From: Desulfonatronovibrio magnus
GTDB taxonomy: Bacteria > Desulfobacterota > Desulfovibrionia > Desulfovibrionales > Desulfonatronovibrionaceae
Length of the DNA stretch: 39,041 bases
Direction of reading: 5' to 3'
NCBI RefSeq assembly: GCF_000934755.1
Contig: NZ_JYNP01000052.1
Location: 1-39,041, forward strand
The translations under genes were made by a program, and so were the position numbers. Below the pieces are notes generated by a model, which did no database searches, was not told the DNA's origin, and was given only the letters and a program-made list of their open reading frames with translations. Positions 12,576-36,104 of the stretch are shown here, piece after piece. Position 1 is the stretch's first letter, and the number at the start of each line of letters is the position of its first letter.

Positions 12576-13634
12576 ATGGAACCAACAGACAACGAATTTG
12601 CACTGTACCCCATAGGTTATGTGGAGTCTGAATTCACAAACAAGAAAGACTGCCCATGCCAGGGCAACAATTCCTGCCCTCCGGCCATAATCCGCATCAA
12701 ACCACAGTTCAAGCAGGCCATGTCAGGATTGGCTGCTGGTCAAAACATCGTTCTTATTACTTTCCTGAACAGGGGAAACAGAAATGTTCTGCAGTGCCAT
12801 CCAAGAAATGATAAAACACTGCCCATAACCGGTGTGTTTGCTACTCGAAGCCCCAACAGGCCCAATCCTCTGGGCATGCATCAGGTTGAAATTCTGTCCA
12901 TGGGAGATGACTTTATCCAGGTTCATCCGCTGGAAGTACTGGATCAGACCCCGGTAGTTGATATCAAGCCTGTATTGGGAACCTCAGAAAAAAATAGGAA
13001 GGAAAGCTCAGACTGCAGCGATGTTGCACGCTTTTTTACAGAAGATGAGATTCAAGGTCTTATTAGAATCTCGCGGTATGCCTGCACAAAAGGTTTGCTT
13101 AGCGGTTTTAACGGCAATCTGAGCATTAAAAAACAGGACTATGTCCTGATTACTGGCTCTAACAGGCCCAAACCATTTTTATCCGCTCAGGATATGTGTG
13201 TTATGAGTCTAAGCTCAGGAACACAAGTGGCAGGAAGTGCAAAAGCTTCTACAGAGGCAGAAATGCATTTGGAGATTTATAGAAATCAATGTGAAGCAGG
13301 TGCTGTTGCTCATACCCACCCCAAAAATTTACTGTCCCTCAGCAGGGTAATGGGCAATTTATCTCTGAGTGATATTGAGCTTTATGAGGCAAAACATCTG
13401 GCTGGGAAGGTTTGTAATGTGCGGGCTTTTCAGCCAGGCAGCCTGGAACTGGCTCTCGATGTTGGGTCTGCAAGCCTTAAGCATAGTTGCATTTTTATGA
13501 TCAACCACGGACTGACCTGTTGGGGACAAAGCTTAGAACAGGCTATGGCTTTGAGTGATGAACTTGATGCCCTGGCCGGCATCCAGCTCAACAAGCTAAT
13601 GACTGATGAAGCAAACTCATCAAAGGGTATTTAA
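12576..13634 (+). CDS. Fusion of a TrmO-type tRNA methyltransferase and a class II aldolase
   Basis: 352 residues, two domains. Residues 9-135 are a TsaA/TrmO domain (YPIGYVESEF, the conserved ATRSPNRPNPLG at 89-100, then LEVLDQTPVVDIKP). In TrmO this domain methylates N6-threonylcarbamoyladenosine-37 of tRNA with S-adenosylmethionine. Residues 150-345 are a class II aldolase/adducin domain with the FucA-type layout: GN 180-181 and TGS 193-195 for phosphate, S225-T226-E227 carrying the catalytic Glu, and zinc ligands HTHP (H246, H248) and NHG (H311). Both halves retain their key residues. The linker is short (about 136-149), with no stop or frameshift. The plain role of the combination is unknown; a chance fusion of neighbours is possible. 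The ribosome site is GAGG, 7 nt upstream. Confidence 0.8.
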   Translation: MEPTDNEFALYPIGYVESEFTNKKDCPCQGNNSCPPAIIRIKPQFKQAMSGLAAGQNIVLITFLNRGNRNVLQCHPRNDKTLPITGVFATRSPNRPNPLGMHQVEILSMGDDFIQVHPLEVLDQTPVVDIKPVLGTSEKNRKESSDCSDVARFFTEDEIQGLIRISRYACTKGLLSGFNGNLSIKKQDYVLITGSNRPKPFLSAQDMCVMSLSSGTQVAGSAKASTEAEMHLEIYRNQCEAGAVAHTHPKNLLSLSRVMGNLSLSDIELYEAKHLAGKVCNVRAFQPGSLELALDVGSASLKHSCIFMINHGLTCWGQSLEQAMALSDELDALAGIQLNKLMTDEANSSKGI

Positions 13635-17213: not shown

Positions 17214-19697
17214 TTATGCCCATATATATGAATTTCCAGGATTTTTCTTAGCTGCAAACAAAGCCTTATCAGCCCTGCCAAGCAATTCTTCCTTGCTCTC
17301 TCCATCCTGCATAATAGCCAGGCCAATGCTCAAACTGACATTGTAGTCGAAATCTGATTCAAAGGACTTGATAAATCTTTTGACCAGTTCCTCAAGCCGT
17401 TTTGCGTCGGTTTCCGTAATCAGCAGCACAAATTCATCACCGCCAAATCTGAAAGGATAGTCCATGCCTCTTCTGGAATTGTTAATGAGCAGCCTTCCAA
17501 AACTTCTCAATGCTTCATCGCCAGCCTGGTGACCATAACGATCGTTGAACTCCTTGAACATATCCAGATCAAAAAAAACGAGCCCCAGTCCCAGGTTCTT
17601 ACGTACAGCGCGCTGGGTTTCCCTCTCTAAAAATATGGCAAACTGATGCCGGTTGAAAACCCTGGTCAGGTGATCAAAAGTAGCCTGTTTTTTAATCTTG
17701 GCTTCCAGCCTGCGGATGGCTGTCAGATCTCTGCCCACTATAAGATATCGTGGACTTGATGTTCCGCTCAAGGGAGTGCAGATAAGTTCCAGTGACTTAC
17801 TGGTGCTGTTCATGATAAGATTGACTTCAATGGGTATCTCTGTCTTGTTCAGGACATCTGGGCCCCAGCCCAGTCCAAGTATAGATGATGGCTGTGCCAT
17901 ATTAAAAAAATTCTTACCAGTCAGCTCTTTTTTATATTGCGGAGAAACAAATTGAATTATGCCATTTTTATCCACAATAAAAACAAGATCCTGCATGGAG
18001 TTGACAATACCTCGCAATTGCTCGCTCTGCCTGAAAACATCCTTTTCAAGAGTTGTCACTTCTGTAATGTCTTCCAGCAGAACAAGAATCTGAAGCACAC
18101 CATCCACGCTAACCTTGTGAGCACTAAGATGCCAGCACGGTTCATGACTGTTTTCCATGCGTGTCTCTAAAGGACAAAAAAGCTTGCTGTACTTTGTCTG
18201 ATTCGGGCTCAGGAAATCATTCCAGGTCTCATCATCAGGAATGTGCGTCAACTCAGCTGCCAATTCCCAGAACTGTCTGTCGCCCGGTTCTGCATCAAGA
18301 CTGAAAATTTCTTTGAAGCGATTATTTGTCTGCAGAATTTTTCCAGCACTTGAAACCCTGGCTACAGCTACCGGCAGAGAATCCATAATCATGGCCTTGC
18401 AAGTAGTGCTCATGGTCCTGTAATAATAGGCTTCAAAGGTACGGGTCAGGAAATTGATGTATAAATCTACTTCAGCGACAGTTTCTTCGCCCAGCGATCC
18501 AGACACCTTTATATAGCCTTTATCCTGCAGGTAAAAATGAATTCCGGCCTTATCTAATCTGTCTTCATCCACAGTCTGATTAGGCAGGGGCTCAACTCCA
18601 TTGGCCCGCGAACAAAAATAATGATTCATCTCCCCGGTCATGGGCGACAAAAGCGCAATTTCAAACTCATCTATCCCCCACAACCAGTGCAGCTGTTTAA
18701 GTATTGTCCTCACCACATGGTACAGATCACCCTGAACATCCTGCAATTCCTGAGCGGCAAAGTACAGATCCTGAATTTTGACTACGGGAAAATTATGATA
18801 TTCTATTTCTTCGTCATTGCTGCTTATGCTTAAACTCTGACACATTGTCTTGAAACGGGTGGAGATGGTTGACCTGACCCGCTCAAAAGCATCTTCGTCT
18901 AACCCCAGGATATTCCTGGCAATACTGCGCACCCTGAACAGCTGAGAAATATTGTTTTCACTCATCTCCACTTCAGCCCAGTAAGTAGCAAGGATCAATG
19001 TCCGGGCAGGGGAATCATGGTCTTTAATGTTTTCAAGGTCGTGATGACTAATTAACAATTCGCATTCTGACCGGGGAAATCCCCAGGAGGAGAGCAGATC
19101 CATTGTCAGAAAAGTATGGTTAACCCCCCAGTGACTTTCTTCTTCCTCAAGCTGATGTGGACGCAAAGTAAGCAGACCATATTTTTCTTTCCTGCATAAC
19201 GAGGCATACTTTTTCAGTCTTGGATCATCAGAACAACACAGCAGTAGAAGGGACAAGTCTTTAACCATGGCACAAACATACAAAGAATCAGCCTGTGGAA
19301 GCTTGAGTTCCCTGGCCAGCAGTTCTGCAGCCATGGCACTCCAGAGAATAACAGCCCAGTTCTGGTATTCTAAATGCTCACATTTACTAAGACGCTCTGT
19401 CAGGCTTTTTTTCATGGTTACGGATATGGCCAGCTTGAGTATCTCGGCACTGCCAAGGATAACCATGGCCCTTTTCAAGTCGCTGACTTTCTGATTCAGA
19501 CCATAATATGGTGAATTGGCGAGAGACATGATCGTTACTGTAAGGCCTGGATCAATTGAGACAATTTTGCTCATCTCGGAAAAATCCGGAGAAGACTTGG
19601 AAGCCTCTTTAATCAGTTGCGGCATTACAGGAGGGAAAACAAGATTCAGGCAGTCCCGTAATGGCTTGATAATATCTCTCGAAATATTGCTGTCCAT
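17214..19697 (-). CDS. HDOD-PAS-PAS-GGDEF regulator, probable diguanylate cyclase
   Basis: 827 residues from ATG 19697, four bases after the stop of the polyprenyl synthase. Approximate order: HDOD domain 15-215 (PPVMPQLIKEASKSSPDFSE, then IDPGLTVTIMSLANSPYY), a GAF-like region 300-420, PAS 430-535, PAS 550-650, and GGDEF 660-815. The GGDEF loop is intact (RFGGDEFVLL). The inhibitory I-site RGMD lies exactly five residues before it, so an active, product-inhibited cyclic-di-GMP synthase is expected. There is no EAL domain. HDOD proteins are usually signalling scaffolds. An ATG at 19844 in the same frame would bury it in the upstream gene, so it was rejected. The tight spacing suggests co-transcription with the isoprenoid gene, an unexpected partner. 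Confidence 0.85.
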   Translation of the reverse strand: MDSNISRDIIKPLRDCLNLVFPPVMPQLIKEASKSSPDFSEMSKIVSIDPGLTVTIMSLANSPYYGLNQKVSDLKRAMVILGSAEILKLAISVTMKKSLTERLSKCEHLEYQNWAVILWSAMAAELLARELKLPQADSLYVCAMVKDLSLLLLCCSDDPRLKKYASLCRKEKYGLLTLRPHQLEEEESHWGVNHTFLTMDLLSSWGFPRSECELLISHHDLENIKDHDSPARTLILATYWAEVEMSENNISQLFRVRSIARNILGLDEDAFERVRSTISTRFKTMCQSLSISSNDEEIEYHNFPVVKIQDLYFAAQELQDVQGDLYHVVRTILKQLHWLWGIDEFEIALLSPMTGEMNHYFCSRANGVEPLPNQTVDEDRLDKAGIHFYLQDKGYIKVSGSLGEETVAEVDLYINFLTRTFEAYYYRTMSTTCKAMIMDSLPVAVARVSSAGKILQTNNRFKEIFSLDAEPGDRQFWELAAELTHIPDDETWNDFLSPNQTKYSKLFCPLETRMENSHEPCWHLSAHKVSVDGVLQILVLLEDITEVTTLEKDVFRQSEQLRGIVNSMQDLVFIVDKNGIIQFVSPQYKKELTGKNFFNMAQPSSILGLGWGPDVLNKTEIPIEVNLIMNSTSKSLELICTPLSGTSSPRYLIVGRDLTAIRRLEAKIKKQATFDHLTRVFNRHQFAIFLERETQRAVRKNLGLGLVFFDLDMFKEFNDRYGHQAGDEALRSFGRLLINNSRRGMDYPFRFGGDEFVLLITETDAKRLEELVKRFIKSFESDFDYNVSLSIGLAIMQDGESKEELLGRADKALFAAKKNPGNSYIWA

Positions 19698-19701
19698 AGG
19701 T

Positions 19702-20670
19702 TTAGAATTTCCTGGTTTTGACCAGAACCAGCATCTCGTCCAGCATATCCCGTTCGTCGCACGCAGGAAATGAGTACAGCGCAGCTCTTGCTCTTTCAAG
19801 ATAGCCGTCAGCCAGTTCCCTGACCCTGTGATCAAAGCCATCATGCTGGATATTTAAAATAATATTTTCCAGTCCTTGCGGGTCCAGGCTGTTATTTGAG
19901 ATTTTTTGGAGCAGGCCGCTTTTTTCTGAACTCGAAAGAGATTCAAGATAAAGTATCAATGGCAGAGTTATCTTGCCTTCTCTTATGTCGTTACCATGCG
20001 GCTTGCCAAGCATACTGGTTTCTGCAGAGTAATCTAAGGCATCGTCCACAAGCTGAAATGCTATGCCAAGATTCATCCCGAATGAGGCAGCCATATCCTG
20101 CAAAAATTTGTCTGCCCGGGCCGCCATAGCTCCGCAACTGGCTGCTGCCTGGATCAGATAAGCGGTTTTACCCCGCACTATCTGAAAATAAATCTTCTCG
20201 TTCATCTCAGGATTTCTGCAGTTGTCAATTTCTTCTACTTCACCAGAAGCAGTCTGTAAAATGGCTTCTGCTACACAATAATTCATGGCTGGCACATCAT
20301 ACCTCGCCACAATCATATTAGCGAGGGCAAGCAAGGCATCACCTGCCAGAACTGTACGTTTTATACCAAATACCACATGAGCGGATTTTTTCCCTCTTCT
20401 AAGCTCAGCCTCATCAAGAATATCATCATGAATAAGCGTTGCTGAATGCAGAAATTCAAGAGAACAGGCCAGAGGATATATATCTTTGCAGCTGTGCTTA
20501 AGGCATCTGGCAATCAGCAGGGTCAACAAGGGGCGCAGCCTTTTACCGCCAGCGAGAAGAGTATACTCACCCACTTCTTTGACTAAGGGATTAAGAACCT
20601 GCAGCTCCTTTTGCAGCACAGTGTTAATGTTAGGCAGTTCTGAATTAAAAAAATCCTTAAGTTTGCTCAT
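19702..20670 (-). CDS. Polyprenyl diphosphate synthase (long-chain, menaquinone side chain)
   Basis: 322 residues. Family motifs are intact: GGKRLRP (41-47), first aspartate-rich motif DDILD (82-86) and second motif DDALD (209-213) with KPHGNDIREGK just after. Residues five and four before the first motif are Ala and Thr, small, as in long-chain (heptaprenyl/octaprenyl) synthases such as IspB/HepT, so a role in the menaquinone side chain is likely. That fits its position just downstream of mqnD and near ubiE. Its ribosome site is AGGGA, 6 nt upstream of ATG. The chain length is inferred. Confidence 0.85.
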   Translation of the reverse strand: MSKLKDFFNSELPNINTVLQKELQVLNPLVKEVGEYTLLAGGKRLRPLLTLLIARCLKHSCKDIYPLACSLEFLHSATLIHDDILDEAELRRGKKSAHVVFGIKRTVLAGDALLALANMIVARYDVPAMNYCVAEAILQTASGEVEEIDNCRNPEMNEKIYFQIVRGKTAYLIQAAASCGAMAARADKFLQDMAASFGMNLGIAFQLVDDALDYSAETSMLGKPHGNDIREGKITLPLILYLESLSSSEKSGLLQKISNNSLDPQGLENIILNIQHDGFDHRVRELADGYLERARAALYSFPACDERDMLDEMLVLVKTRKF

Positions 20671-21715: not shown

Positions 21716-22088
21716 AGCTCCTCACCCGGGCGGCCCGGGATTGAACGTGTGAGTAACTGTCTTTAAAGTGGAGCCTGCATCCTGCAGGCTATTTAATTCC
21801 AGACGGCTGGAAGCCGCCTCCACATTGAAGAACAGTCCCTTATTTGCAAATTGGGACAGTCCCCGCGAGGTACTATAAAAAAGATTGATGCTGCATTGGT
21901 TCCTGGAAGAAATTTGCTTTGATGAAAAAATCTACACAGCGAGGGACAATCCCTGTGCCAAGTGCAAAGTTCCCATCTTTGACGGAATTTTTCAGGCAAA
22001 TGTGCATCAATCATAAGCAAAAATCGTAAAAATATGAGAATTGTAACCGTCTGATTTTGTTAGCAAAACGATTCCAGTTACTTAGAAG
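21716..22088 (+). repeat. Dispersed repeat R1, copy B
   Basis: A long copy with the terminal hairpin (CTCACCCGGGCGGCCCGGG...GTGAG), the AGCCTGC/GCAGGCT and CGGCT-GGA-AGCCG hairpins, the inverted GGGACA motifs, the TTCCCATCTTTGACGGAA segment, and an end GATTCCAGTTACTTAGAAG. It lacks the CTCCGGGCTGTAAGCC module present in copies A and C. Confidence 0.8.
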
Positions 22089-31414: not shown

Positions 31415-31905
31415 TAAGGATTTCGTTCAGAAACCAATGCAGTATCAATCCTTTAGTACCTCGCGGGGACTGTTCTAATTCCCATATATGAGACTGCCCT
31501 TCAATGTGGAGGCGGCTTCCAGCCGCCTTTGCTTTAACAGCCTGAAAGTTGCTCACAGGTTCAGTCCCAGTCCGCCGGAGTGGAGCGCTTACAAGTAACT
31601 GGAATCGTTTTGCTAATAAAATCAAATGTTTACAGTTATCACATTTTGACGATTTTTGCTCATGATTGCTGCACATTTGCCAGAAAAGTTCCGTCAAAGA
31701 TGGGAGCTTTGCGCCTGGCAAAGGGACTGTCCCTCGCTGTGTAAATTTTTACATTAAGGCAAATTTCTTCCATGAACCAATGGAGTATCAGTCTTTTTTA
31801 TAGTACCTCGCGGGGACTGTCCCAATTTTCAGAAAAGTGACAGTATCCTAAAGTTACTCACAAGTTCGGTCCCGGGCCGCCCGGGTGAGGAGCTTACAAA
31901 GCATT
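31415..31905 (-). repeat. Dispersed repeat R1, copy D (two partial units, minus orientation)
   Basis: Two back-to-back partial copies: 31415-31586 and 31587-31905. They share the GGCGGCTTCCAGCCGCC hairpin, the TTCCGTCAAAGATGGGAGC segment, the inverted GGGACTGTCCC motifs and the closing GGTCCCGGGCCGCCCGGGTG. The gene-free stretch 31401-31909 is almost entirely this repeat. Confidence 0.75.
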
Positions 31906-31909
31906 AAAC

Positions 31910-34687
31910 TTATACATCATAAGCAAAAAGCTCATTGATAACTCTTATCAGCTGTTTTTTCTCAAACGGCTTGATCAGAACAGCCTCAATGCCCGCATTC
32001 AATGCAGCCTCTTTCTGAGCAGCCGGTAAATGAGCACAGACCCCAACAATTCTGGCTGGCTGTTGCCCCTTTTCCTGCTCGTATTCACGCATGAGTTCAG
32101 CTGCTTCTATACCACTTAACCCTGCCAGCCTGATTTCCAGCAAAACCAGATCAAACCGGCCCGAGGCAAAGGCTTCAAATGCCTCAAGTCCATTGCCCAC
32201 CACATGGACCTCACAGCCGCACTGCTCAAGATAATACTTCATGACCTGCCTGGAAGCAGGAACATCAGCAAGCAGAACACGCAAGTGCCCTGGCGGACAA
32301 GTAGATGTGGGTATAACAACCGGACCTATCTTCAGATTCAAGGCCCTGACCAGGGAATCTGAAAGGTGCGAAAGTGAGAATGGCTGCTTCAGAATAACAT
32401 ATGCATCGTTAAAAACCCCGGGAAAATGACCTTGACTACCTTTTGAGTCGCAAATAACAATAATACCTGGAAGAAAGTCCTGATCTCTGGTCAAAGCCTT
32501 TAAACTCTGCCGGGTAATCTTTTGGGAGAAGTCGCTTGCCATTCTTGCAGGAATGAGGATCAGATCAAAATTATTTCGGCTTGTGCAGACCTCTTCCCAG
32601 CATGAAAAGGCCTTATCCATGCTATCCGCCTCAAGAAAATCAACACCCAGATTAGTCAAGTTTTCACATAAAACAAATCTATGCGCATATACATCATCCA
32701 CTACCAGAGCCTTGATGCCTTGCATTTTTTCCCTGAAAACAGCCAGCCCGGTCTCAACTAAGCTTGACTCAAGCCTGACAGAAAAGACATATGTCAAATC
32801 TGCATTTTTTCCCTGAAGGGTATGAATGGAGCCCCCCATGGCTCTTATTATTCTTTCACAGATGGGCAAACCTAATCCATTGTGAACTGAAGGCAGGGGG
32901 GAAGCGCCCGGCCTGTAGGGCAAATGGCCGTCCATATCGGATGCTGACCCCGACAATGAAACACTGTCACTATGCAGAGTAAAAGTGTACACACCGCTCT
33001 GTTCTTCCATTTTCAAGGACAGACTTACAGTTCCATCATAACTTTGCTGAATCATACCGTTTAGCAGGGTACTCAAAACCTGGCTCAAACGATTGGCATC
33101 CCCTTTGACCAGAGAATTTATATCCGGGTCAATCTCACTTTTTAAAATACAGTCTCTTTCCCGAGCAGTCAGCCCCGCGTGCTGAACAACATTTTCCGTT
33201 ACTTCGTACAGACTGAAAAAATTGTTTTCCAGAACAAAGGTCTTATCTTCAAAACCAATGAGGTCCATAACATCATTGAGAACTAAAGTAAGACTCTGGC
33301 ATGCATGCCTGGCCATATGGAAAATCATATCTTCCTGCCGATTTGTGGGGTATCCAGGAAACATATCACATGCTCCGAGTATACTCATCAGAGGTGTTCT
33401 GACCCCGTTGTTAATCAGCTGCAACAGTTCATCCCTGAGCCGGGAAGAACTTTCAGCCAGTGTTCTGGCATTTTGAATCTCTTCAACAGCCTGCTTTCTC
33501 TCGGTACAGTCCTCTACATACCCTTCGATTAGATTCTGGCCATCTTCCCAAACCTGATGAGCCGACACACTGCCCCAGAACCATGATCCATCCTTTTTCC
33601 AGAGCATGGCTTCAAAATTGAATACTTTCTCCTCTTCTCTAAGTATCCGAAAAAAATCCCTGAATACATTTTTATCCACAAACAGCTCAGATACAGGGCC
33701 AGTGATACTTTTTGTAAAGTCTTCTGGCGACTCATAACCATGCATTCCGGCCAGAGCCGGGTTTACACTGATCACTTCTCCATCAAAGGAAACCTGAAAA
33801 ATACCCTCTAAGGCATTTTCAAAAAGCCCGCGATATTTCTGTTCCTTTTGCCTGGCTTTTGCCAGAAGGCTGGACAGTGTAGCCATATATCTTGAACCCA
33901 AACCCCGGGCAATGTCTGATTGAGTTAAAATCCCTGCCACTTGTCCACATGGATCAAGCACAACCAGTCTGCGCAGATCTTGCGCAGACATCTTTTCAAG
34001 GGCAAGCTGCAATGGTTCATCTTTGCAAACAGCCTGAACAGGGCTGCTCATAACCTGAAAAAGTTTTAGATGATCAAGATCAGGCAGTGCATCATGCACA
34101 ATCCTTACGCAATCACGTTCAGTGAGAATGCCTGCGGCTACATGCGATGCCTTCTGAGGCATTTGAGAGCTATCGTGCACAATCACCAGACAGCTGATTT
34201 GCTGTTCAGCCATAACCCGAAAATAATCGCGCACCATACCGTCTAACGGAGCAGTAATGACCTGGGGATTAAAAAAATCAGCAACAGTGGTTTCCTGGTC
34301 CAGCCCCCCTTCCATCAGGGATTTGATGAGATTGGTCAGGGTAATCACACCCATGACATTCTGATTGTCATCCAGAATAACCAGGTGCCTTATGTTCATT
34401 CGTCGCATATGATCGTAAGCATCCAGCACAGTGGTGGCACTCTTTTGAGAATATACAGGAAAACTCATATTGAGCTTCACTGGTGATTTGGTCATATCAA
34501 TGCCCTGGGCTACTGACCAGAGCAGATTGTGCTCTGTAAAGATGCCCACTGGAGACTGGTCGTCCATAATCACCACACACGATACACGATGCTCGCGCAT
34601 TTTTCTGACCACATTGATGGCAGGTGCGCTCTGGTCAATGCTGACTACGTCCGAACTGAGTATTTCAGCAACTGTCTTGTTTAACAT
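31910..34687 (-). CDS. CBS-PAS hybrid-kinase-like protein lacking phospho-acceptor residues
   Basis: 925 residues from ATG 34687 (AAGGAAAG upstream; an earlier ATG at 34762 would overlap the preceding gene). Order: four CBS motifs (1-265), PAS (285-395), HisKA-like (410-480), ATPase-like (485-640), receiver-like 1 (655-785) and receiver-like 2 (800-925). Every phosphotransfer site is changed. The H-box reads INNGVRTPL, with Asn427 where the His should be. The ATPase DTGxG segment is replaced by HSDSVSLSG, although GLGLPI and GDANRLSQVL remain. Receiver 1 has Pro713, and receiver 2 has Glu851, at the Asp site. The frame is intact over 2.8 kb, so it is a pseudo-kinase scaffold, not a decayed gene. 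The CBS domains probably bind adenine nucleotides (family knowledge). It follows the REC-REC-HD-GYP gene by 28 bp. Confidence 0.82.
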   Translation of the reverse strand: MLNKTVAEILSSDVVSIDQSAPAINVVRKMREHRVSCVVIMDDQSPVGIFTEHNLLWSVAQGIDMTKSPVKLNMSFPVYSQKSATTVLDAYDHMRRMNIRHLVILDDNQNVMGVITLTNLIKSLMEGGLDQETTVADFFNPQVITAPLDGMVRDYFRVMAEQQISCLVIVHDSSQMPQKASHVAAGILTERDCVRIVHDALPDLDHLKLFQVMSSPVQAVCKDEPLQLALEKMSAQDLRRLVVLDPCGQVAGILTQSDIARGLGSRYMATLSSLLAKARQKEQKYRGLFENALEGIFQVSFDGEVISVNPALAGMHGYESPEDFTKSITGPVSELFVDKNVFRDFFRILREEEKVFNFEAMLWKKDGSWFWGSVSAHQVWEDGQNLIEGYVEDCTERKQAVEEIQNARTLAESSSRLRDELLQLINNGVRTPLMSILGACDMFPGYPTNRQEDMIFHMARHACQSLTLVLNDVMDLIGFEDKTFVLENNFFSLYEVTENVVQHAGLTARERDCILKSEIDPDINSLVKGDANRLSQVLSTLLNGMIQQSYDGTVSLSLKMEEQSGVYTFTLHSDSVSLSGSASDMDGHLPYRPGASPLPSVHNGLGLPICERIIRAMGGSIHTLQGKNADLTYVFSVRLESSLVETGLAVFREKMQGIKALVVDDVYAHRFVLCENLTNLGVDFLEADSMDKAFSCWEEVCTSRNNFDLILIPARMASDFSQKITRQSLKALTRDQDFLPGIIVICDSKGSQGHFPGVFNDAYVILKQPFSLSHLSDSLVRALNLKIGPVVIPTSTCPPGHLRVLLADVPASRQVMKYYLEQCGCEVHVVGNGLEAFEAFASGRFDLVLLEIRLAGLSGIEAAELMREYEQEKGQQPARIVGVCAHLPAAQKEAALNAGIEAVLIKPFEKKQLIRVINELFAYDV

Positions 34688-34715
34688 GGCTTTATCTTTC
34701 CTTGGCTCAGCAGTG

Positions 34716-36104
34716 TCAGGAGATAGATTCAAAATGACCTTGGCCAATATCTGGGTTATCATGTATAAGTTTCAAAAATACTGATACGCATTTGGAACAT
34801 AGATGATTACCAGTGGCACTGCCAATTATTTCAAGAGCTTTATCAAACCCCATGGGATCTCTGTATGGCCTGCTGCTGGTTACAGCATGATAGACGTCCG
34901 CCACAGCAATGATTCTCGCCCAGAGATGAATGGCATCGCCGGAGAGACCGTAAGGATATCCTGACCCATCTATCTTTTCATGATGCTGCAATACTCCTGG
35001 AATTATTTCGCTCATACTGGGTATGGGTTTTAAAATTTGGGCCCCCATAAGTGGATGACGCTGAATTTCGGAAAACTCTTCATGAGTCAAGCGTCCTGGC
35101 TTGAGTAGTACCTTGTCCGGAATGCCTATTTTTCCAATGTCATGCAGCCGGGCGCACAAAGTGATGTCGTGCAGTTCTGATTCAGAAAAATCCATTTCTT
35201 TAGCAATCAGGGAAGCAATGGCAGCCACTGATTCTGAATGGCCTCTGGTATAAGGATCTCGTGCCTCCAAAGCCTGAATAAGGCTGGCAATGCTGCCCAC
35301 AAGCATATCCCGGTCATGTGTCAGGCGCTGTTTATCCAGAAGAAGTAGTCGAAAGTGATCAGAAAGCAGTTTTTCAGCATATATCACAAGCTGATCAAGA
35401 TTGAATGGCTTAAGTATATATCCTGATGCCCCCCGCTGCATCATTTCTCTCATCAATCGACGATCACTCTCAGAACTCATGATCAGCACAGGCACATCAT
35501 CAAGCTCTGAACGGGAGCGGATATTTTCGCACAACTCTATACCGTCCATGACCGGCATATTCAGATCAGTAATGATCATATCAGGCTTAAGATTACCCAG
35601 AATTTCCAGGGCCTTCATACCATTTTCAGCCAGTTCCACACCGAAACCATTCTCCATCAGACCACGGGACACTATACCCCTGATATATTTGGAATCATCC
35701 ACTACAAGAACCTTGCTGTTGCGCAACATGACTGACTTTTCCAGAATGTCATTGACCCTGGGCAACAAGTCCCTGCTGGCATTGATTTTGGGTACATATG
35801 CAGTTGCGCCGACTTCAAAACCTTTTTCAATATATTCCTCATTCTCATTGGCACTTAGCATGAGTACGGGAATATGCCTGGTTCTCTCGTCAGACTTAAG
35901 CTGCCTGCACAGTTCAAAACCATTCATCCTGGGCATATCTATATCAGTTATGATCATGTGAGGCATATGTTCTAAGGCCTTTTCCAGTCCTTCCTGCCCG
36001 TCCTCACCTTCAAAAAGTTCAGCCTTGAAAGACGCAAGCTGCTTGAGCAGCACCTTTCTAATGGTTTTACTGTCATCTACAATAAGTATTCGTGATTTAT
36101 TCAT
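34716..36104 (-). CDS. Response regulator with two receivers and an HD-GYP output
   Basis: 462 residues. Receiver 1 has D54 (MIITDIDMPRM) with DD at 10-11 and K106. Receiver 2 has D180 (MIITDLNMPVM). The HD-GYP domain follows from about 270: HD at 321-322 in ARLHDIGKIGIPD, HHE at 374-376 and DGSGYP at 379-384, all intact. This is the RpfG layout, a cyclic-di-GMP phosphodiesterase controlled by two receivers. I chose ATG 36104 (MNKSRIL) because receiver 1 starts there; an earlier ATG at 36164 adds a Cys-rich tail with no ribosome site. A CBS-PAS pseudo-kinase follows on the same strand. Confidence 0.88.
   Translation of the reverse strand: MNKSRILIVDDSKTIRKVLLKQLASFKAELFEGEDGQEGLEKALEHMPHMIITDIDMPRMNGFELCRQLKSDERTRHIPVLMLSANENEEYIEKGFEVGATAYVPKINASRDLLPRVNDILEKSVMLRNSKVLVVDDSKYIRGIVSRGLMENGFGVELAENGMKALEILGNLKPDMIITDLNMPVMDGIELCENIRSRSELDDVPVLIMSSESDRRLMREMMQRGASGYILKPFNLDQLVIYAEKLLSDHFRLLLLDKQRLTHDRDMLVGSIASLIQALEARDPYTRGHSESVAAIASLIAKEMDFSESELHDITLCARLHDIGKIGIPDKVLLKPGRLTHEEFSEIQRHPLMGAQILKPIPSMSEIIPGVLQHHEKIDGSGYPYGLSGDAIHLWARIIAVADVYHAVTSSRPYRDPMGFDKALEIIGSATGNHLCSKCVSVFLKLIHDNPDIGQGHFESIS

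Follow-up and report, generated by a model that had tools for sequence, protein, structure and literature searches.

In the RpfC/RpfG system, a hybrid kinase gene reportedly stands beside a REC-HD-GYP gene, and RpfC is said to be a membrane kinase that phosphorylates RpfG. DivL of Caulobacter is described as a sensor of DivK~P that acts neither as kinase nor as phosphatase (PMC4211667), and related pseudokinase literature deals with RocA (PMC7028121 and PMC7380576) and with a pseudokinase form of ChrS (PMC9491836), alongside which PMC8846402 is cited. For receivers, a 2025 review defines a pseudo-receiver as a receiver fold in which any of five conserved residues is missing and calls the activation and inactivation of bacterial pseudo-receivers a mystery (PMC12632262). 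Here, we analyzed a 39,041-nucleotide stretch of DNA (the window) from Desulfonatronovibrio magnus, a sulfate-reducer-like bacterium, in which a 925-residue protein is encoded next to a REC-REC-HD-GYP phosphodiesterase, an enzyme of cyclic di-GMP (c-di-GMP) breakdown. The protein has the layout CBSx4-PAS-DHp-CA-REC-REC and appears to be a dead hybrid histidine kinase (HK) whose fold has been maintained, and it may act on its neighbor by docking. Among the matches listed in the open-licence literature, at the level of titles and the first lines of abstracts, none reported a dead hybrid kinase with CBS domains whose gene adjoins one for an HD-GYP protein.

The gene lies on the minus strand at window positions 31910 to 34687, and its frame is unbroken from the ATG at 34687 to the stop codon that ends at 31910. 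Four CBS domains (residues 1 to 278; 33854 to 34687, minus strand; Pfam CBS, 109 bits, and motifs) are followed by a PAS domain (about residues 279 to 404; 33476 to 33853, minus strand; PAS_9, 37.7 bits against a cut-off of 27). The adenosine-ligand motif of CBS domains is G-h-h-T/S-x-x-D/N, and it is intact in all four copies (GIFTEHN at residue 48, GVITLTN at 113, GILTERD at 186, and GILTQSD at 252), consistent with an adenosine-ligand sensor. The pseudokinase core then follows (DHp-CA; residues 405 to 642; 32762 to 33475, minus strand), with two receivers behind it, REC1 (about residues 655 to 790; 32318 to 32725, minus strand) and REC2 (about residues 800 to 925; 31913 to 32290, minus strand). 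The Pfam thresholds were passed by CBS, by PAS, and by a single receiver, which is REC2 (Response_reg, 67.8 bits), while HATPase_c, at 24.1 bits for a required 26.4, and HisKA, at 18.3 bits for a required 26.9, were both subthreshold; REC1 was missed by Pfam and scored a weak 12 bits with a home-made profile. Since no 19-residue Kyte-Doolittle window exceeds a mean of 1.31, hydropathy predicts no membrane segment in the protein.

The residues needed to handle phosphate were then read directly. The phospho-His position is occupied by Asn427 and the phospho-Asp positions by Pro713 in REC1 and Glu851 in REC2. In an alignment of the kinase core with 56 kinases of the same genome, 11 of the 13 catalytic columns, counting His and Glu, have been lost: His is replaced by Asn, Glu by Gly, both N-box Asn residues by Thr and Gly, Lys by Gln, the D/G/G of the G1 box by S/S/S, and the first G2 glycine by Ala, the two F-box Phe residues are deleted, and two G2 glycines are retained. 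REC1 keeps its acidic pair, carries Cys for Thr, and has its Lys-Pro interrupted by Gln (LKQP); REC2 has lost one residue of the acidic pair, likewise has Cys for Thr, and retains Lys906. Thus, the phospho-His, most of the ATP-site box residues, and the receiver phospho-Asp of an active hybrid histidine kinase are missing, both receivers, without Asp and Thr, are pseudo-receivers, and the core is a predicted pseudo-histidine kinase, that is, an HK fold with catalysis lost. These losses support the conclusion that the kinase and receivers no longer do phosphotransfer. It is possible that Glu851 mimics phospho-Asp, but a standard receiver switch in REC2 is doubtful because the Thr and one residue of the acidic pair are missing from this domain as well. 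A first-pass annotation, made from the letters of the window, had already given the frame with its coordinates and length, the four CBS motifs and the PAS domain, the three substituted residues, and the missing ATPase DTGxG, and each of these was borne out by the frame itself, the PAS_9 match, the residues read, and the G1 substitutions in the alignment.

To what extent this protein stands apart in its genome can be told from its homologs. The genome holds 111 HisKA matches, and the His is kept in all 110 others, the 925-residue protein being the sole exception. For receivers, the home-made profile, which may overlook other degenerate receivers, found 96 stretches among the fetched own-genome kinase frames, the 925-residue protein, and the HD-GYP neighbor; the phospho-Asp site is filled by a letter in 91 of these, by Asp in 89, and the remaining two are both from the 925-residue protein. 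A published census gives 0.9% for HisKA without His and 2.0% for receivers without Asp (PMC12632262, section 6), so one His-less kinase per 111 is ordinary, and the unusual part is that the His and both Asp sites are lost together in one protein. The genome itself measures 4.8 Mb, against 1.8 to 2.9 Mb in five other species of the genus, and first-look candidates for the 925-residue query numbered 228 in it versus 46 to 89 in those species.

An ortholog with the same substitutions beside an RpfG-type gene, which the first-pass annotation had suggested searching for, was not found. In the search of 348 genomes of the class (E 1e-70; two best first-look candidates scored per genome), the window itself stood alone; 84,980 genomes scanned with a peptide pattern yielded none; 17 other genomes of the family gave no match at E 1e-60, nor for the CBS part at E 1e-20; and a plasmid collection yielded 20 records with CBS relatives, all below 60% identity. 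With no ortholog found, simulated neutral decay was used as a stand-in for dN/dS. The retention of catalytic and hydrophobic-core columns was compared with that in paralogs of the same genome and with decay simulated to equal divergence, in a model without indels that starts from a typical paralog. The catalytic columns of the kinase core score 35 standard deviations under the mean of the 56 paralogs, and 59 of its 64 core columns are still hydrophobic (paralog mean, 62.3; minimum, 57). Simulated kinase decay kept at most 57 core columns (at least 59 in 0/280 runs) and brought in 5.1 stops on average, with no stop-free run among the 280. REC1 keeps 28 of 30 core columns versus a simulated mean of 21.6, and a retention of 28 was reached in 0/332 runs. 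REC2 also keeps 28 of 30, against 25.3 in simulation, and since 44 of 276 runs retained as much (20 of them stop-free), REC2 taken alone is compatible with neutral drift. Because no kinase or REC1 run kept as much core and no kinase run stayed stop-free, a long-decayed pseudogene is unlikely by this test, and selection on the fold long after the loss of catalysis is supported, with very recent loss of function still compatible with single-sequence simulations.

Immediately upstream on the same strand lies the gene for a REC-REC-HD-GYP phosphodiesterase of 462 residues (34716 to 36104, minus strand; Response_reg twice, HD_5 at 139 bits). The gap of 28 bp between the two genes (34688 to 34715, minus strand) contains the ribosome-binding-like sequence AAGGAAAG upstream of the ATG, and the first residue of the 925-residue protein is in register with the starts of the open reading frames (ORFs) of five CBS relatives (L043, L045, L046, L055, and L058). 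Both receivers of the neighbor are intact, the motifs HDIGK and HHEKIDGSGYP are present, and its HD-GYP part matches the solved HD-GYP proteins 5z7c and 4mcw, so that it is of the RpfG type by receivers and motifs; an intact partner at this distance had been claimed before, and gap, receivers, and motifs were all verified. Promoter-like sites (7 versus 8.0 in shuffles) and a scan in which no terminator-like site was found on the coding strand neither favor nor exclude an operon. Another c-di-GMP gene on the same contig encodes an HDOD-PAS-GGDEF protein (window 17214 to 19844).

The relatives of the CBS part, to 15 of which it is 30 to 41% identical, tell where such sensors are used. A CBS-alignment scan gave 364 relatives, of which the best 80 were retained for all counts that follow and classed by motif and small home-made profiles into GGDEF (30), GGDEF plus EAL (10), EAL (3), HD-GYP (9), kinase (17), and none (11). 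The CBS4-PAS sensor is thus fused to c-di-GMP enzymes in 52/80 (HD-GYP in 9, GGDEF and/or EAL in 43), and HD_5 was confirmed by Pfam in all three fusions tested (L224, L252, and L266). These fusions support a link between the 925-residue protein and its HD-GYP neighbor. In the CBS tree, from which 2 of the 80 rows were dropped as short matches and whose labels differ slightly from the motif classes since the regular expressions differ, seven HD-GYP fusions of Desulfobulbaceae and relatives (L224, L250, L252, L231, L232, L258, and L223) form one clade at 100/99, with L236 and L266 outside. At the L266 locus (L266:5664-9331), the CBS4-PAS-GAF-HD-GYP gene shares its first 4 bp with a separate HD-GYP gene, which also supports the link indirectly; the separate gene has a 5TM-like match just under the Pfam cut-off. 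The 17 kinase relatives all appear to keep the His, 15 by the His-motif expression and two (L228 and L240) by eye, the match of the expression in L240 being due to chance. Within the class without a motif, Pfam assigns GGDEF to L253, L275 shows both GGDEF- and EAL-like stretches by eye and bears the label EAL in the CBS tree, L289 is partly masked and unclassified, and L287 ends in a His-less HisKA. The motif of the CBS4-PAS-GGDEF protein L253:7001-8700 reads GNDEF, possibly a dead cyclase behind the same sensor type.

Kinases of a similar layout are the CBS4-PAS-HK-REC proteins of Solidesulfovibrio (Desulfovibrionaceae; genus inferred), which are about 28% identical overall and, in those aligned, retain His, N-box, G1, and Asp. 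Orthologs that keep these residues were what the first-pass annotation expected of a recent pseudogene, and the Solidesulfovibrio proteins do keep them, but they are not clean orthologs, so that this test is poorly applicable: of the sequences compared, hybrid kinases of its own genome are the best matches for the kinase half of the 925-residue protein and for its REC2, whereas the CBS part finds its best matches in the Solidesulfovibrio proteins, and the PAS domain in L061, another CBS4 kinase of the Desulfovibrionaceae. In the CBS tree, the protein groups with the CBS-only proteins L243 and L248 (86/91), although its placement is unsure. The Solidesulfovibrio kinases were therefore rejected as active orthologs.

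Based on the lost phosphotransfer residues, the retained fold, the intact CBS motifs, and the intact neighbor, each supported by sequence analysis, we reasoned that the 925-residue protein could work as a DivL-like pseudokinase that relays the ligand state of its CBS and PAS domains to the HD-GYP protein by docking, for which we see an even chance. In such a cytosolic sensor, the kinase and receiver domains would be kept as folded interaction surfaces that do not handle phosphate. Ligand would be bound by all four CBS domains, there probably an adenine nucleotide, and by the PAS domain, and the dimeric DHp-CA core with the two pseudo-receivers would transmit the conformational change. Direct docking to the REC-REC-HD-GYP protein would most simply use the surface of the DHp to which a receiver domain normally binds, as in DivL/DivK~P. 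The output would be c-di-GMP breakdown set by the nucleotide state, and perhaps also by phosphorylation of the HD-GYP receivers by another kinase. Co-transcription, dimerization, ligand, contact, and effect on the neighbor are all inferred here. The earlier suggestion of a nucleotide-sensing scaffold stands in so far as the protein seems maintained by the decay simulations, its CBS motifs are of the nucleotide type, and fusions connect the sensor with HD-GYP; that the two genes form a conserved module was not upheld at 20 ortholog loci.

Several observations weigh against the docking model. Orthologs of the HD-GYP protein (36 to 63% identity; E 1e-85) occur in 66/345 class genomes, including its own, and 20 of the 65 other genomes were sampled for their neighborhoods by tblastn counts within the fetched stretches. 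The HD-GYP gene was located in 20/20 (in L097 the contig stops at this gene), yet a CBS relative was present in 0/20, and a kinase relative elsewhere in the stretch was present in 4/20 (L096, L105, L109, and L114). As these 20 orthologs have no CBS protein nearby, the pairing is seen here alone and is, as far as seen, lineage-specific. Besides, no ortholog attests long-term conservation, the branch of the CBS part is very long, with 1.39 changes per column the second longest among 79, and the noncatalytic columns are the most diverged of those compared in the kinase core (0/56 paralogs lower) and in REC1 (0/83 lower), those of REC2 being not extreme (14/83 lower). No stop arose in about 10% of the runs for REC1 and in 31% of those for REC2, which leaves little weight to an open frame in a single short domain, and single-sequence simulations cannot tell a maintained protein from one that lost its function very recently. 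Finally, any of the 110 other HisKA matches in the genome could be the true partner.

The last point leads to the rival that survives best, namely, that the 925-residue protein partners with a different histidine kinase from its own genome, in mixed DHp dimers or complexes, and that the HD-GYP gene is a mere neighbor. CckA and CovS are active kinases for which DivL and RocA, respectively, are described as regulators, the candidates are numerous, the kinase half is most similar to own-genome hybrid kinases, and the HD-GYP orthologs manage without a CBS protein. Against these stand the direct succession of the two genes and the fusion of CBS4 sensors to c-di-GMP enzymes in most of the relatives classed by motif, and we consider this reading unlikely.

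Less probable still is an outgoing pseudogene whose frame happens to be open. It would account for the missing orthologs, within the family as well as in the wider scans, for the long branches, and for the fact that the 925-residue protein has the lowest kinase-consensus identity of 57 aligned, in both DHp and CA. However, 925 codons have remained free of stops, core retention in the kinase and REC1 exceeds every neutral run, and the change of 11 of 13 catalytic columns calls for a long period without catalysis. The codon-position G+C of the domains is also broadly as in the HD-GYP gene and unlike that of the neighboring intergenic stretch, the pattern being weakest in DHp-CA. A ShkA-like role of REC1 or REC2 as ligand or docking sites, with a pseudo-receiver binding c-di-GMP, the substrate of the neighbor, as feedback, is quite improbable, since ShkA is an active kinase and this one is dead, even though REC1 of ShkA, at the same place between CA and REC2, is described as binding c-di-GMP (PMC7010744) and REC1 here has kept its core despite losing most sequence similarity.

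The docking model can be widened, in a more speculative manner and with rather low probability, to a wholly phosphate-free "two-component" pair, in which a CBS/PAS nucleotide sensor would employ its dead kinase core and receivers as an allosteric adaptor, docked on the receiver domains that the HD-GYP enzyme carries in a chain of its own, and L287 would be a second, independent case. L287:3-1229, from a Desulfobacterales bin, is a CBS-PAS protein, its start cut off by the contig edge, whose terminal HisKA has Asp at the His site and which lacks an ATPase domain. Its sequence gives an independent hint, in favor of the docking model as well, that sensors of this type can use a dead DHp; against that model, the 7.5-kb stretch of L287 contains no HD-GYP-like ORF. 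If true, such a pair would do in two proteins what the CBS4-PAS-HD-GYP fusions do in one, and L287 would be a CBS-PAS sensor that kept just a His-less DHp.

Two further features of the window were noticed. The 20-base motif ACAGTCCCCGCGAGGTACTA occurs within a longer repeat at 31454 to 31494, 31801 to 31841, and 21856 to 21875, and with up to 2 mismatches allowed the genome holds 218 copies, 113 of them forward and 105 reverse, against 0 for the reversed control. A single ORF at 12576 to 13634 combines TrmO_N and class II aldolase domains.

Compared with described systems, the likeness to DivL, which is not known to have receivers, is mechanistic alone. The domain layouts differ: DivL has Tyr for His, whereas the 925-residue protein has Asn there, its ATP site is ruined, and it carries four CBS domains and two dead receivers. 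Shared are the PAS plus DHp-CA parts, the replaced phospho-His, and the kept HK fold, with receiver docking described for DivL (PMC4211667). ShkA of Caulobacter has the same DHp-CA-REC1-REC2 order with a degenerate REC1, but its kinase is active and passes phosphate to REC2 (PMC7010744). Pseudo-receivers are common, and a kinase and both receivers dead in one protein, while the other surveyed copies are intact, make a clean natural case, one of HK parts that would be used purely as protein-protein parts, and offer a link between adenine-nucleotide state and c-di-GMP breakdown that can be tested. The Solidesulfovibrio proteins have the same N-terminal layout, with 38 to 41% identity in CBS, but those aligned keep the catalytic residues and have one receiver, and a sigma-54 response regulator is adjacent in the one locus scanned by Pfam. 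The CBS4-PAS-HD-GYP proteins of Desulfobulbaceae and relatives carry the same sensor type with HD-GYP in the same chain, and in the two scanned (L224 and L252) Pfam reported no kinase or receiver domain. Like RpfC/RpfG, this locus has a hybrid kinase gene next to a REC-HD-GYP gene; unlike that pair, its kinase is dead, bears CBS domains, and has no membrane segment by hydropathy, and its HD-GYP protein has two receivers.

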